Assembly: GCA_031261265.1 (NCBI GenBank)
Contig: JAISKI010000033.1
Coordinates: forward strand, 1-5,251
From: Candidatus Peribacteria bacterium
GTDB lineage: Bacteria; Patescibacteria; JAEDAM01; Absconditabacterales; Absconditicoccaceae
Length of the DNA: 5,251 nucleotides
Direction of reading: 5' to 3'
Below are positions 211 to 5,022 of the stretch, in pieces; position 1 is the first letter of the stretch, and every line of letters starts with the position of its first letter. A program made the position numbers and the translations under genes. The notes under the pieces are model-generated. The model made no database searches and was not told the DNA's origin. It worked only from the letters and a program-made list of their open reading frames with translations.

Positions 211-1527
211 TTATGGCGTTAATCTTTGCATATCACGTGGAAAAAGTTCAGCTTCTTTGATATTTTCTAGTCCGATTACTTTTTGTACGAAACGGGAAAT
301 CCCCAATCCAAATCCTCCCTCATCGGGCATTCCATATTTGAAAGCGTCTAAATAATGTTTCAATCCTGGATGGTTGGGATCCATTCCCTGGTCGGCGATT
401 TGTTTCACGATATTTTCATATATGACTTCACGCTGGGTGAGCGTGACAATCTCTACTCCTCTGAAAAGCAAGTCTGCTCTGTCGGCAATTTCAGGATTTT
501 CTCTATTTTGGTGATGATAAAACTTTGCATCAGACCATGGAAATCCATCAACAATCACAAAATCTGATCCTCGATTTTTAGCTGAATATTCACAGATGAA
601 TTTCTCCTCCGATGGAGCTAAATCTCTCTCTCAAACATAATCTTCACCCGTTTCTTGTTTCATCAGTTCGTGAAGTTTTTCTACGGTAATACGAGGAAAT
701 TTTTCAACAAGTAAGGGTTTTGTAGCTCCGAGAGCGAGAAGAAGCTGTTCTCCTTCTTTTCGAGTTTGCTCGATTACATAATTTACAAATCTCTCCGTCA
801 TCTCGATAATATCATCGAAACTATCGATAAATCCCATTTCCATATCGAGCATTAAAATTTCTGTCGTATGTCTGCTAGTATTGCTCTTTTCTGCTCTGTA
901 GGCTTTTCCGATTTCGTACACTCTCTCAAATACAGGAACCATCATTTGCTTGTAAAACTGAGGACTTTGTGCGAGATAGGCTTTTTTCCCAAAGTATTCC
1001 ATCTCGAAAAGTTCTGCTCCTCCCTCAGTCGGAAATCAGATTATTTTTGGGCTATTGATTTGAGTAAAATCATTCTGATCTCGGAATGCTCTCATATTTT
1101 TTTCAATCATCGCAGCGATTTTGAAAATTTTCTGCTGTCTAGGATGACGCAAAACAACTACTTTTTGTTCGTGAAGGGTCTCACCATCGGCAGCAATCGT
1201 GTCTTTGGAAATGTCCACGGGAGAGGGATAAATCACTTTATTCAGCACTTCAATCGTGGATTTTTGGAGTTCAAAGGGGAATTTTCCCTTGGGCATCTGA
1301 GCGACTGTTCCCGTAGCTTTCACGATAGAACCGAGCAACGCTCCGTCCAATTTCGCTATTTCAGCAGGGTCTTCAATGACGACCTGAGAAAGTCCATTTC
1401 TATCTCTGAGGATCAGAAATGCAAGGGTTGCACCGACTGTACGCACGGTGTGAAGGTGTCCACGAAGAGTGGCGGTTTCTCCGATGTGTTCGGGTAATTG
1501 CCCTGAAAGAATGCTGTCTTTAAACAT
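211..1527 (-). CDS. aspS: Aspartyl-tRNA synthetase, archaeal type (probably non-discriminating), with two UGA-Gly codons
   Basis: This class II aminoacyl-tRNA synthetase charges tRNA with aspartate in the cytoplasm. The 438-codon frame (ATG 1527-1525, tandem TAA TAA at the end) is interrupted only by two UGA codons: codon 164 (1038-1036) in SPKII-G-FPTEGG and codon 299 (633-631) in EDYV-G-ERDLAP. Reading them as Gly gives one full-length protein. An OB-fold anticodon-binding domain spans about residues 1-110 (GHLHTVRTVG, LRDRNGLSQVVI). The catalytic domain follows, with YLAQSPQFYKQ (184-194), motif 2 RAEKSNTSRHTTE (211-223) and motif 3 GGFGLGISRF (404-413), ending FPRDMQRLTP. Length, the lack of the bacterial GAD insertion and the C-terminus match archaeal-type AspRS rather than bacterial AspRS or AsnRS. 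With gatC nearby, I infer that it also charges tRNA(Asn) with Asp. About 31 glycines, only 2 from UGA. No Shine-Dalgarno site precedes the start; a promoter lies at 1560-1587. Confidence 0.93.
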
Positions 1528-1559
1528 TATTGATGTGAATAGAATATAAATCTAATTAC

Positions 1560-1587
1560 AATATATACAAATTGTTTATGGTATCAA
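1560..1587 (-). promoter_or_regulatory. Sigma70-like promoter of aspS
   Basis: On the minus strand, -35 TTGATA (1587-1582) and -10 TATATT (1565-1560) are separated by 16 nt, each matching 5 of 6 consensus bases. Transcription would start near 1553, giving a leader of about 25 nt. A second -10-like hexamer, TATTCT (1546-1541), lies 13 nt before the ATG and could give a much shorter leader. The promoter fills the 77-nt gap after the glycosyltransferase gene, where I see no terminator hairpin, so read-through from that gene is also possible. Confidence 0.5.
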
Positions 1588-1604
1588 GAGGTTTTTAAGG
1601 GAAT

Positions 1605-2474
1605 TTAATATACTCCAAATTCTTGGAAAGCCTGATGATAGATCTGTTTAAAAAGCGGGAGATTTTCTTGGATATCGTGATAACAGGGTATCGCTTGGGA
1701 AAGATTCTGAATACAAGTAGTAGTATCAGCACTATGCGTAATATCTCTACGAGAATTGTAATTGGAAAATCGTTGAATTTCTCTTTCTGAGGGGGTCGTG
1801 ACAATTCCTCCAAAACCTGTCCCCGAAATCAAACACTTTAGTCCCAAAACATTCATTTCCTGCAACGCTAGTCCTACTCCGATCCCGTATTTGAACTGTG
1901 CAATAAACTTCCAGGCTTCTTCATCTTTGAGAGGGAGAAGAGATCCAGCAGGATAAGGATAGGTCGAAATGGTAGAAAGTTTCCGTCCTAAGGTAGAAAG
2001 GAGATTTTGTAGTCTCTCATATTCAGGTCGTTTATCTTTGTAGAGATTACCAAAATAAACGATCTCTTTATCTCCGCGGGTAGGTAGAGACTTATAGGGA
2101 AGAATCCTTTCTGCATCAATCGTCATAGGAATCAGAATTGATTTTCTGTGAGCTTGTTGGAGCAACTCTTGATATTTTTTGGTATATACGATCGCAAGAG
2201 AATTTTCAGGGCTCTCAGCGATGAAAGTTCTCATCTGCAAAGTATCGTGAATAAATTGGATATATATATCACTAGTTCCATGTCTTTCTCTCAGAGTACA
2301 CGTAGTGCTAATGAGAAACTGTTTGTCTACGTCCTGAAGCAGTTCTTTGATCAGTGGAATCTGGTATTTTAAGATGTTTACAGAATAGGTATATCCTCCA
2401 TTTTGGTATCCATATTCGAGATATTTTTGATGTCGTACAGGATCGGTATAATCAATGATAGTAATTTGATGCAT
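1605..2474 (-). CDS. GT-B-like glycosyltransferase (GT4-type), substrate unknown
   Basis: An unbroken 289-residue frame ends in TAA. I chose the ATG at 2474-2472 (MHQITIIDYTD) because an upstream in-frame TTG at 2534 falls inside the -35 box of the promoter. The protein seems soluble, with no signal peptide or membrane segment. It looks like a divergent GT-B fold: a Gly-rich loop near the N-terminus (YQNGGYTYS, 23-31), the interdomain pattern LIPMTIDAERI (114-124), the start of the second Rossmann domain IVYFGNLYKDKRPEYE (138-153), and ALQEMNVLGLKCLISGTG (203-220) followed by FGGIV, in the place where GT4 enzymes carry the nucleotide-sugar-binding EX7E region. The usual second Glu is not clear, so activity and donor are uncertain. 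All 17 glycines use GGN codons and none UGA, unlike its neighbours. It could be another two-Rossmann-domain protein; the family call is moderate. Confidence 0.55.
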   Translation of the reverse strand: MHQITIIDYTDPVRHQKYLEYGYQNGGYTYSVNILKYQIPLIKELLQDVDKQFLISTTCTLRERHGTSDIYIQFIHDTLQMRTFIAESPENSLAIVYTKKYQELLQQAHRKSILIPMTIDAERILPYKSLPTRGDKEIVYFGNLYKDKRPEYERLQNLLSTLGRKLSTISTYPYPAGSLLPLKDEEAWKFIAQFKYGIGVGLALQEMNVLGLKCLISGTGFGGIVTTPSEREIQRFSNYNSRRDITHSADTTTCIQNLSQAIPCYHDIQENLPLFKQIYHQAFQEFGVY

Positions 2475-2505
2475 AAAAAAAACTGAAAGATAAAAGATGT
2501 CTCCC

Positions 2506-2534
2506 TTTATAAGAATAAAGTGGTTTTTTGACAA
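2506..2534 (-). promoter_or_regulatory. Strong sigma70-like promoter of the glycosyltransferase gene
   Basis: On the minus strand, -35 TTGTCA (2534-2529) and -10 TATAAA (2511-2506) are separated by exactly 17 nt, each matching 5 of 6 consensus bases. It is the best promoter in the window. Transcription from about 2499 would give a leader of about 25 nt before the ATG at 2474. That leader is T-rich (TCTTTCAGTTTTTTTT) and has no Shine-Dalgarno sequence near the start. Confidence 0.65.
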
Positions 2535-2597
2535 CCGAGTGAGTGTAAGGAAAGGAAAAAGATTTGCAAGAGATAATGTTTTTAGATGGGCTTTAGG

Positions 2598-3261
2598 TTA
2601 ATTCGGAGTTCAGCCAATAAGCTCTGAAATAGGCACCAGATATTTTCCATATTTTTCTACCATAAATTTTAAATCCTCTGTAAATCTTTCTGGATAGTGT
2701 ACGATTTCTGCTTGAAGCTCAGCAAGTGAAAATACTTCTATCCCTGTAGCCTCTCCGTCCTTGAACTTAATTGCCCCATCGTAGTACCCACAATAAACGG
2801 TGGTAATATGGGGTTGTTTAGTCATATATATATCAGGAGTTTTGGGTGATTCTTTCTGACATAAAAGTCTGCAGATAATCCACAGATCTGAACAGCCCAA
2901 TAACATCCAAATCCACAACTTTAATTGCATTAAAGAATTCCTGCTCTGAGGCAACCACAGCGGGAAATCCTAATTCTTCGGCACATTCTTTTACCACTGT
3001 CATAGTGAAGGAATCTCCTGCCACCACATGTCCTCCAACCGTTTTATCATACATTCCAGCATTCCCATCTTTATATTTACTTCTTTTCTGGACATAAAGA
3101 CGTCCTGCAGAGGTCATCAGAAAAAGCCTAATTGTTTTCACCTTTCTCGTGATTTCTCACTTTTCATCGTACTCTTTCCAGATTTCTTTATAAAATTCCT
3201 TTCTGTCTTGGACTCAGATAAGATTGGATTGAAGGTCGTAGATTTCTAGTAATTCTGCCAT
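2598..3261 (-). CDS. Nudix hydrolase, read with UGA=Gly, frame broken at an (AT)5 tract
   Basis: Nudix enzymes hydrolyse nucleoside-diphosphate-linked compounds; the substrate here is unknown. Translation starts at ATG 3261-3259 (MAELLEIYDLQSNLIG). UGA codons at 16 (3216-3214), 35 (3159-3157) and 143 (2835-2833) read as Gly. The QKRSKYKDGNAGMYDKT segment (58-74) and the Nudix box G77-F99 are clear: G(x5)D(x7)KECAEELGF, with conservative E-to-D and R-to-K changes in GX5EX7REUXEEXGU. This layout resembles YfcD/IPP-isomerase-like Nudix proteins. At 2824-2833 the frame runs through ATATATATAT and stops at TAA (2820-2818), giving 147 residues. The expected C-terminus (TVYCGYYDGAIKFKDGEATG, then VPISELIG-G-TPN with a fourth UGA, 2612-2610) continues in another frame to TAA 2600-2598. 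One more AT unit would give 221 residues. The cause may be a repeat-contraction mutation, a sequencing error or, less likely, recoding. No convincing promoter or Shine-Dalgarno site was found. Confidence 0.85.
2824..2833. repeat. (AT)5 dinucleotide tract at the Nudix frameshift
   Basis: Five AT units lie exactly where the reading frame of the Nudix gene changes. The upstream frame reads TGA TAT ATA TAT GAC TAA, while the downstream conserved region needs ATG ACT AAA. Adding one unit (+2 nt) or losing one base joins the two halves. Short dinucleotide tracts are prone to replication slippage. Confidence 0.8.
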
Positions 3262-3297
3262 TTGTGATATGTAAAGGTAAAATATCCTTTTTTATAA

Positions 3298-3346
3298 CCC
3301 CCGTCCTCGGTCCCCCTAACAGGGGATAAAAATAAGGGATAAAAAA
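3298..3346. repeat. GC-rich island with a short hairpin and tandem GGGATAAAAA repeat
   Basis: In the AT-rich gap between the transporter stop (3351) and the Nudix start (3261) there is a C-rich block (3298-3325) containing CCCCT-AAC-AGGGG (3313-3325), a 5-bp stem with a 3-nt loop. It is followed by two copies of GGGATAAAAA at 3323 and 3336, a 13-nt period. No T-run follows the stem on either strand, so it is not a standard terminator, although its position after the transporter gene would suit one. It may be a small interspersed palindromic element; I cannot show other copies from this window. Confidence 0.4.
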
Positions 3347-3350
3347 CTGA

Positions 3351-4562
3351 TTATACAATACTATTTTGCTGTTTCTTTTTCCAAAGAGTTATAATTAACA
3401 ATCAAATAATTACAAAAATGGTCATAGTAGCCATTGCAATACGATAACTTCCACTATTCACTCCTCCTACGGCGATAATCCCTCCCCAAGTTAAAGGTCA
3501 GATTATTGCTGCAAATCTTTCAAAGATCGTATAAAAAGAAAAACCATATCATAAATCCTCCTTAGTAAGTAGCAAACTCATATAAGCACGACTTACTGCC
3601 CACATTGCTCCTATTAAAATTCCTACAAGAGCCGTAAGTACCATAAATATAGTAATATTAGCAGTAATTGCCACAATAGGAAGTGCTACAATCCAAGCAA
3701 TCAATACTCCTGTTAAAGTCTTTCTAATTCCTATTTTGTCTCCAATCCAACCCGACAATAATGCTCCAATAGCATTCATTACTACAATAACCATCAAGAT
3801 AATGGACTTTTTAGTATTAGAGATTTCAAAAACATTTTCTAAATAAATAGAGAGATTGTTCGTGACCGTCACCAAGGCATCATTGTAGAAGAAAAATGCA
3901 ACAAGTAAGGGTGCTGCTACAGAAACGGAGAAAAAGGGAATTAATTTTTTGTAAAAATGATTTCGTTCTACTTTTTTTATTGCAGTAGTGGTTTCTGTTT
4001 TTTTATCTTTGAAAAAGATCATCATTGGCAATGCTAAAAGGAAAAACACTCACACAGCAGGCAATAAAGGTGCTAATAAATTTTCACTCAAAGGAAGAAA
4101 AATCGCTAATCCTACCACTTGCCCCAAAGCATTTGCAAATTGTCCAATCCCTGATACTCTTCCTCTATGATTTTTATCAGAAATATCGTCAATCATCGGA
4201 TTATAAAAAACAAAAGAAAGCTGATAGAAGTATTGAGCAAAGAGAAAAAAGAGTGCTGTAAGGTATATAGGTCGTTGTTGAAAAGCAGATAATGCAGATA
4301 ATCCATAAAAGAGAAATACTCAAATAGTAGAAAGATTTAGAAATTTCTTGAGATTTCCAAACTTATCGGTATATGCTGCTAATGCTGGTGCACTAAAAAA
4401 CAATAATACAGCTGAAATGGCGAAAATAGCATTATATCCTAAATCTGAGAGTCCTCAATCTGCTGAAACTAACCACTGAGAAAAATACAACAAAAAATTT
4501 ACAAATACAATTGAATTTGCAAAATCATACAATGCCCAGAGGAAAATCTGTTTTTTTTGCAT
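3351..4562 (-). CDS. UMF1-family MFS transporter with six UGA-Gly codons
   Basis: A membrane transporter of 403 residues, starting at ATG 4562-4560 (MQKKQIFLWALYDFANS) and ending in TAA 3353-3351. The N-terminal LYDFANS signature and NHRGRVSGIGQFANALG after the fourth hydrophobic segment are typical of the UMF1 family (related to fungal Atg22). About 12 hydrophobic segments can be counted, with a charged loop (FFKDKKTETTTAIKKVERN) in the middle, as expected for a 6+6 MFS protein. The substrate cannot be told from sequence. UGA occurs at codons 36, 81, 171, 338, 355 and 387 (for example SAD-G-GLSDLG, STI-G-VFLFYG, AII-G-PLTWGG). Six of about 28 glycines use UGA, and all lie in otherwise continuous membrane-protein sequence, so this gene is the best proof of recoding here. 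With the standard code it would be split into several fragments. No Shine-Dalgarno site; TATTCT at 4581-4576, 13 nt before the ATG, may be the -10 box, but no good -35 is seen. Confidence 0.9.
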
Positions 4563-4575
4563 AGCTATATGGTAA

Positions 4576-4581
4576 AGAATA
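4576..4581 (-). promoter_or_regulatory. Possible -10 box of the MFS transporter gene
   Basis: TATTCT on the minus strand ends 13 nt before the ATG at 4562. The same hexamer is at nearly the same distance before gatC and aspS. No good -35 lies at 16-18 nt; the nearest candidate, TTTACC (4601-4596), is only 14 nt away. The call rests mainly on the shared placement. Confidence 0.25.
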
Positions 4582-4588
4582 AAACAAA

Positions 4589-4737
4589 CTATTTTGGTAA
4601 AGAAAACTTCATAACTTTCTCACTAGTTTCAAAACCTGATACAACATCTCCCATAGGACTTCCTACCTCTAATGCATTCAATAACAATTCTTCCTTGTCT
4701 AAAGATTTCCACGACAGAGATATTGGAAACGAAGTAC
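4589..4737 (-). other. Intergenic open frame, possible gene remnant
   Basis: Between gatC and the transporter one minus-strand frame is open and codon-like. It reads SLSWKSLDKEELLLNALEV, then GSPMGDVVSGFETSEKVMKF and SLPK, ending in TAG (4591-4589). It is rich in G-starting codons and has A/T third positions, as in real genes here. It has no ATG near its beginning; the frame runs back into gatC in an overlapping frame, so it may be the 3' end of a displaced gene. The only start-like codons are TTGs in the middle. The plus strand also has a frame (ATG 4569 to TAG 4769, 66 residues) with less coding-like composition. I do not recognise either product. Confidence 0.25.
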
Positions 4738-5022
4738 TTACTCTCCAAACGCTGACTTCACTTCAATAGCATTTCCCGCCAAACGCTCTGCATTCACATT
4801 CTGCAAAATCGCCTGTGCATCCACGAACGTTTCCTGCTGGTCAAAACAAGCTATCACTTTCTCCTCATCAGACGAAACAATTTCCTCTGGCAAGGGAAAC
4901 TCATAAAACTCATCAAACATCTGCTTCATATTGGAGAAATAGTCCAAAAAAGCTGGCATTTGATCAGGATCAAGCTCTATTGCAGTCAGTTTAAGTAATT
5001 TTTGGAGTTCAGCTTCTTGCAT
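4738..5022 (-). CDS. gatC: Asp-tRNA(Asn)/Glu-tRNA(Gln) amidotransferase subunit C
   Basis: GatC is the small subunit that holds GatA and GatB together in GatCAB, which amidates misacylated Asp-tRNA(Asn) and/or Glu-tRNA(Gln). The 94-residue product has the family layout: an N-terminal helical part (LQKLLKLTAIELDPDQMPAF, then LDYFSNMKQMFDEF) as in the GatC LxxLAxLxL region, an acidic proline-containing linker (FPLPEEIVSSDEE), and the C-terminal signature AILQNVNAERLAGNAIEVKS ending AFGE, which fits the usual ILxNAP...xxVPxxF end. I chose ATG 5022-5020 because the N-terminal helix begins there and a promoter lies just upstream; an upstream in-frame ATG (5130) would add 36 residues unlike GatC. 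The stop is TAA and there are no UGA codons. gatA and gatB are not next to it in the window, so the set is split or lies outside. Together with the archaeal-type AspRS it points to tRNA-dependent Asn synthesis. Confidence 0.82.
   Translation of the reverse strand: MQEAELQKLLKLTAIELDPDQMPAFLDYFSNMKQMFDEFYEFPLPEEIVSSDEEKVIACFDQQETFVDAQAILQNVNAERLAGNAIEVKSAFGE

Follow-up and report, generated by a model that had tools for sequence, protein, structure and literature searches.

The 5,251-base stretch of contig JAISKI010000033.1 analysed here (hereafter the window) is very likely chromosomal-type DNA of the Absconditabacteria (SR1) written in a doubly altered genetic code, with UGA read as glycine and CGA, probably together with CGG, read as tryptophan. 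Its GC content is 36%, and its five genes, encoding an aspartate-tRNA ligase (AspRS), an uncharacterised protein (hyp309), a Nudix hydrolase, a transporter and a GatC-like small protein, all lie on the minus strand. The window itself informs the meaning of UGA through ten alignment columns and, more thinly, that of CGA through three AspRS codons; the genome-scale codon columns, tRNA sets and RF1-type release factors come from relatives.

Twelve in-frame UGA codons occur in three of the genes, two in AspRS, six in the transporter and four in the Nudix gene, as an earlier reading of the letters alone (the sequence-only reading) had counted, and they represent 12 of the 97 glycine codons on the window's coding paths. 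TAA terminates all five genes, again in line with that reading. In all minus-strand frames TGA makes up 113 of 257 stop triplets, and the probability that 12 out of 12 interruptions would be TGA by chance is approximately 5e-5. The accompanying claim that these frames are interrupted by UGA only stands for AspRS and the transporter, which contain no internal TAA or TAG; it does not stand for the Nudix gene, which changes frame as well.

Comparison with relatives places glycine at these codons. Across the ten scored UGA columns of AspRS, the transporter and the Nudix hydrolase (natural-log scores; the last two Nudix UGAs were left unscored), glycine reaches +19.6 and the next best residue, alanine, -3.9, and the same scoring behaves as expected on control codons (CGT and AGA give arginine, TGG tryptophan, GGA and GGT glycine). 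Database rows were used for the transporter and Nudix columns, with P0241 left out of the former and P0121, P0122 and P0222 out of the latter. Among the 120 transporter matches listed, glycine occupies UGA codons 355, 387, 338, 81, 36 and 171 in 118, 116, 105, 99, 98 and 36 cases, respectively. Furthermore, in the 318 kb of the sister genome G252 covered by codon-column counts, UGA falls opposite glycine at 47 of 69 conserved positions (GGA at 454 of 598), and in five further SR1 relatives (L001-L005) at 86 of 113. UGA columns dominated by tryptophan, the contrary outcome named in the sequence-only reading, are not seen, tryptophan being found at 0/69 and 0/113 of these positions.

Dedicated decoding machinery is also present in relatives. 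tRNA matches were collected for the SR1 genomes G001, G004, G005 and G252, and all four carry a tRNA(UCA) of about 74 bases with a glycine-type acceptor stem (G1:C72, C2:G71, G3:C70 and U73, the glycine identity rule quoted from PMC8629427), which ARAGORN labels 'SeC'. A tRNA-Gly(UCA) pattern permitting A or G at position 37 and up to three mismatches matches 33 of 288 class genomes and misses G002, G003 and G249, though all three use in-frame UGA in AspRS. In 33/33 of these matches (L328-L357; G001, G004, G005, G252) G37 stands beside A36, and among the 33 other A36 tRNAs in these four SR1 genomes, 31 carry A37. Earlier patterns, which assumed A37 or a GCGG at set spacing, returned no tRNA-Gly(UCA) among their matches, at least partly because this tRNA has G37. 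The window itself yielded no tRNA.

Each of eight relatives with in-frame UGA in AspRS (G001-G005, G176, G249 and G252) encodes one full-length RF1-type factor with the motif PAT, PDT or PET, and RF2 was not found in any of the eight searched; G002, G003 and G005 additionally encode a short GGQ protein. The standard-code genomes G006 and G007 possess both RF1 and RF2, the latter with SPF, these motifs being presumably diagnostic of the two factors. Both a tRNA-Gly(UCA) and a lack of UGA-decoding RF2 had been predicted from the sequence, and they are borne out in four and eight relatives, respectively. Glycine as the meaning of UGA in the window, proposed there too, is well supported by the ten window columns, the counts in G252 and L001-L005, and the tRNA(UCA) of relatives.

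The CGA codons of the window point to tryptophan without proving it. AspRS codon 256 corresponds to TGG in every one of the five SR1 relatives and to tryptophan in 10 of 13 standard-code relatives from the candidate phyla radiation (CPR); codon 319 corresponds to TGG in two of the SR1 relatives and to CGA in the other three; and codon 149 corresponds to phenylalanine codons in four of them and to CGA in one, with Phe 8, Leu 3, Tyr 1 and Met 1 in the CPR set. Arginine occurs in 0/39 cells of the 13 CPR relatives at these three columns. Scored with the CPR relatives, tryptophan obtains +5.8 and arginine -5.0, or +8.5 and -6.5 when L001-L005 are added, and against all 75 non-SR1 relatives the AspRS CGA codons of the window and L001-L005 together yield a tryptophan posterior of 0.93. 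Database protein rows were left out of this scoring because many look mistranslated. Of 118 database relatives, 40 have tryptophan at AspRS codon 164 and 39 have arginine at codon 331, which we interpret as SR1 proteins translated with UGA as tryptophan and CGA/CGG as arginine; public protein sets thus seem already to hold such errors.

Since the window alone only points to tryptophan, it is the sister genome G252 that decides the CGA question. There, CGA at conserved positions faces tryptophan in 18 of 45 cases, any aromatic residue in 24 and arginine in 2, and the comparison codons UGG and CGU face tryptophan in 29 of 49 and arginine in 54 of 92 cases, respectively. In the standard-code control G006, treated alike, CGA faces tryptophan in 0/125 and arginine in 71/125 cases (Fisher p 2e-12 for the contrast with G252). 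Similarly, CGA faces tryptophan at 6 of 7 positions in L001-L005, and AspRS codon 331 (window 535-537) is UGG in the window and CGG in G252. The tRNA sets agree with a changed identity, as tRNA(CCG) and tRNA(UCG) are without A20 in 4/4 SR1 genomes and carry G73 (read by eye), features whose identity rule is quoted from PMC8629427; A20, called by a crude D-loop rule, is present in SR1 Arg(GCG), (UCU) and (CCU) and in the tRNA(UCG) of G006. CGA is very probably a tryptophan codon in the window's lineage, to judge from these columns, and CGG, on few sites, probably one. The idea that tryptophan moved to CGA and CGG so that critical sites would be spared the misreading of UGG was considered and rejected, the conserved tryptophan fractions in G252 for CGA and UGG (Fisher p 0.10) following a trend opposite to it.

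Several observations weigh against the doubly altered code. The sequence-only reading expected glycine-dominated AspRS columns at codons 164 and 299, and this failed: codon 164 lies in a column of small residues (Ala 46, Gly 11 and Ser 7 among the 75 non-SR1 relatives), where four of the SR1 relatives use UGA and the remaining one GGA; the column at codon 299 varies and is weak evidence. Most of the weight for UGA is carried by the transporter and Nudix sites. The relatives searched for RF2 are draft genomes of unstated completeness, and the factor could be missing from any one of them for that reason. As for CGA, the 13 CPR relatives mostly have leucine at AspRS codon 319 (Leu 9, Trp 2, Thr 1, Tyr 1), arginine occurs at codon 256 in 9 of 75 non-SR1 relatives (0/75 at codons 149 and 319), and against all 75 the window's AspRS CGA codons alone give tryptophan a posterior of 0.57. 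When all five window CGA columns are scored, including two variable transporter sites, phenylalanine obtains 0.39 and tryptophan 0.26, and the attempt to settle the meaning of CGA from the window alone was abandoned on that result. CGG is rare and, at its few sites in G252 and L001-L005, faces tryptophan in 4 of 9 cases and arginine in 2.

The simplest competing account, that the window uses plain code 25 with UGA as glycine and CGA and CGG still arginine, covers all the UGA evidence, draws on the table assigned to this group, and can appeal to the arginines at AspRS codon 256 and to the indecision of the five window CGA columns. We consider it improbable, because it leaves unexplained the tryptophans opposite CGA in G252 and their absence from the control, the alternation between UGG and CGA or CGG at AspRS codons 256, 319 and 331, and the tRNA(CCG) and tRNA(UCG) without A20. 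Re-calling the genes with table 25, the check first suggested, would therefore give wrong proteins: that code is incomplete because CGA, and probably CGG too, appears to mean tryptophan, and the Nudix gene changes frame.

Explanations that deny glycine fare far worse. Were UGA to encode tryptophan as in Mycoplasma (code 4), its use as a sense codon and the failure to find RF2 in relatives would both be accommodated, and so would the tryptophans of database rows at AspRS codon 164 were these not taken as products of that very translation; but the UGA columns are glycine columns throughout and the acceptor stem of tRNA(UCA) carries glycine identity, making this reading highly unlikely. We hold it just as unlikely that decaying pseudogenes or assembly errors cause the in-frame stops. 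Although the Nudix gene does change frame, this explanation is contradicted for AspRS and the transporter, because their frames hold UGA only, UGA is kept at the same glycine columns in relatives, and the window's AspRS, 90% identical to that of G252, has three CGA sites and the UGA at codon 164 in common with it. Selenocysteine is the least probable meaning of all: the 'SeC' label that favours it is set by the anticodon, the tRNAs measure about 74 bases and have acceptor stems of the glycine type, and the UGA codons of G252 are too numerous and too glycine-like for selenoproteins.

The doubly altered code would operate as follows. UGA would be read as glycine by the dedicated tRNA(UCA) with its glycine acceptor-stem identity, and RF2, the terminator at UGA, would have been lost, with UAA and UAG remaining as stops; with RF2 gone, genes would stop at UAA or UAG. 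CGA, and probably CGG, would be read as tryptophan by tRNA(UCG) and tRNA(CCG), which are without the arginine identity element A20 and bear G73, and CGU and CGC would stay arginine through tRNA(GCG). From the relatives we infer that these tRNAs are present, and RF2 absent, in the genome to which the window belongs, and that glycine and tryptophan are charged and decoded accordingly in the cell.

The placement of the window in SR1/Absconditabacteria, suggested before any search, is upheld, as the AspRS tree, the codon usage and the tRNA evidence agree. At the level of AspRS the window shares 89-90% identity with G252 and 70-76% with L001-L005, two of which are titled candidate division SR1. In the tree (38 rows), a single-gene basis for the clade placement, the window and G252 join with support 100/100 inside the SR1 set, and G249 stands at its base (100/98). 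The AspRS genes of the window and G252 share all three CGA positions as well as the UGA at codon 164. L001-L005 do not have the gene order seen around the window's AspRS, and three of these five relatives have a tRNA-Thr(CGU) gene downstream of AspRS, at a distance of between 43 bases and about 1.1 kb. AspRS and the Nudix gene are near each other in the window and on separate contigs in G252, where the GatC-like gene directly precedes the Nudix gene (L268 1115-1941); the window has the MFS transporter between these two genes (3351-5022).

The Nudix hydrolase aligns to its relatives in frame 0 over residues 1-146 and in the +1 frame thereafter, the switch falling within, or next to, the TA-rich tract at 2812-2835. 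All four UGAs nevertheless lie on the coding path, and codon 143 stands opposite a UGA-coded position in the relative L268. The gene is intact in one frame in relatives, including L268 of G252, and the change in the window may reflect an assembly error, a polymorphism or a broken gene.

Among the remaining genes (Table 1), hyp309 yielded no Pfam or NCBIfam family match and no relative among viral_contigs. The GatC-like protein is so named by us; it has a weak match to the AtzG-like family PF13318 (21.2 bits, below the cut-off of 24), and the piece adjoining the Nudix gene in G252 is 61% identical to it. Because a non-discriminating AspRS and a GatC-like protein share the window, an indirect amidotransferase route to Asn-tRNA(Asn) is suggested.

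Table 1 Features of the window and tRNA genes near AspRS in relatives
Feature	Sequence	Position	Strand	Details
AspRS, aspartate--tRNA(Asn) ligase (non-discriminating type)	Window	211..1527	-	NCBIfam NF003483, 440.7 bits against a cut-off of 353
AspRS TGA codons 164 and 299	Window	1036-1038, 631-633	-	
AspRS CGA codons 149, 256 and 319	Window	1081-1083, 760-762, 571-573	-	Very probably read as Trp
hyp309, uncharacterised protein	Window	1605..2534	-	Family not found; 0 TGA, 3 CGA, 1 CGG; TAA stop
Nudix hydrolase, two reading frames	Window	2598..3261	-	PF00293; compared with L268 and three database relatives
Nudix TGA codons	Window	3214-3216, 3157-3159, 2833-2835, 2610-2612	-	Codons 16, 35, 143 of frame 2818-3261; codon 115 of frame 2598-2954
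MFS transporter (UMF1/Atg22-type)	Window	3351..4562	-	PF07690, PF11700; relatives named UMF1 family
Transporter TGA codons	Window	4455-4457, 4320-4322, 4050-4052, 3549-3551, 3498-3500, 3402-3404	-	Codons 36, 81, 171, 338, 355, 387
Transporter CGA codons	Window	4272-4274, 3963-3965	-	
GatC-like small protein	Window	4738..5022	-	94 aa from conserved ATG; 0 TGA; TAA stop
tRNA-Thr(CGU)	L003	2817-2889		
tRNA-Thr(CGU)	L005	11505-11579		
tRNA-Thr(CGU)	L002	12393-12465		

Two aspects of this lineage are possibly new, the near-equal use of CGA plus CGG and UGG for tryptophan (G252 has 51 conserved positions with the former and 49 with the latter, and the window's coding paths have 9 and 10 codons, respectively) and the conserved G37 of tRNA-Gly(UCA), of which a thin literature search found no mention in the available portions of PMC8629427 and PMC4695839 and for which it brought up no further candidate paper. 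Tentatively, the second reassignment might have matured here, with G37 keeping tRNA-Gly(UCA) off UGG, although we would give this combined proposal less than an even chance, and a guarding role of G37 against the reading of UGG is a guess. If true, G37 would let glycine and tryptophan share the UGA/UGG pair. In practice, translation tables 11, 4 and 25 would each put false stops or wrong residues into the window's proteins. A lineage in which the two kinds of tryptophan codon are about equally used is a good place to test sense-codon reassignment by proteomics, and it raises the question of how a single tRNA can read UGA without reading UGG.

UGA as glycine, which the sequence-only reading rightly took to be a known code of this group, has been on record for SR1/Absconditabacteria and Gracilibacteria (NCBI table 25) since 2013 (Campbell 2013 and Rinke 2013, as cited in PMC8629427), with proteomic support in BD1-5/SN-2 (PMC4032931). 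The window resembles table 25 systems in having UGA at glycine columns, with tRNA-Gly(UCA) present and RF2 not found in its relatives, and in belonging to the same clade, but differs in that CGA, and probably CGG, would mean tryptophan where that table has arginine. Tryptophan for CGA and CGG was itself predicted in Absconditabacteria with Codetta (Shulgina and Eddy 2021, PMC8629427), whose authors call it a computational prediction awaiting experiment, and the present case matches theirs in clade, codons, tRNA features (no A20, G73) and UGA as glycine, even though the window's lineage is apparently outside their species set. CGA looks commoner here, at 45 per 10,000 codons in 68 conserved ORFs (open reading frames) of G252 (CGG 6, UGG 55), compared with below 37 in all the Absconditabacteria of that study, the two figures being different measures. 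The near-equal use of CGA plus CGG and UGG is not without precedent, because PMC8629427 names one genome in which the former match or exceed the latter. With codes that read UGA as tryptophan, as in Mycoplasma and the patescibacterial family JAKLIH01 (PMC13092985), the system has in common a sense UGA and, apparently, the loss of RF2; unlike in those codes, the amino acid at UGA here is glycine. As UGA as glycine was already described (2013) and CGA/CGG as tryptophan already predicted (2021), the window is best regarded as another example of a known code.

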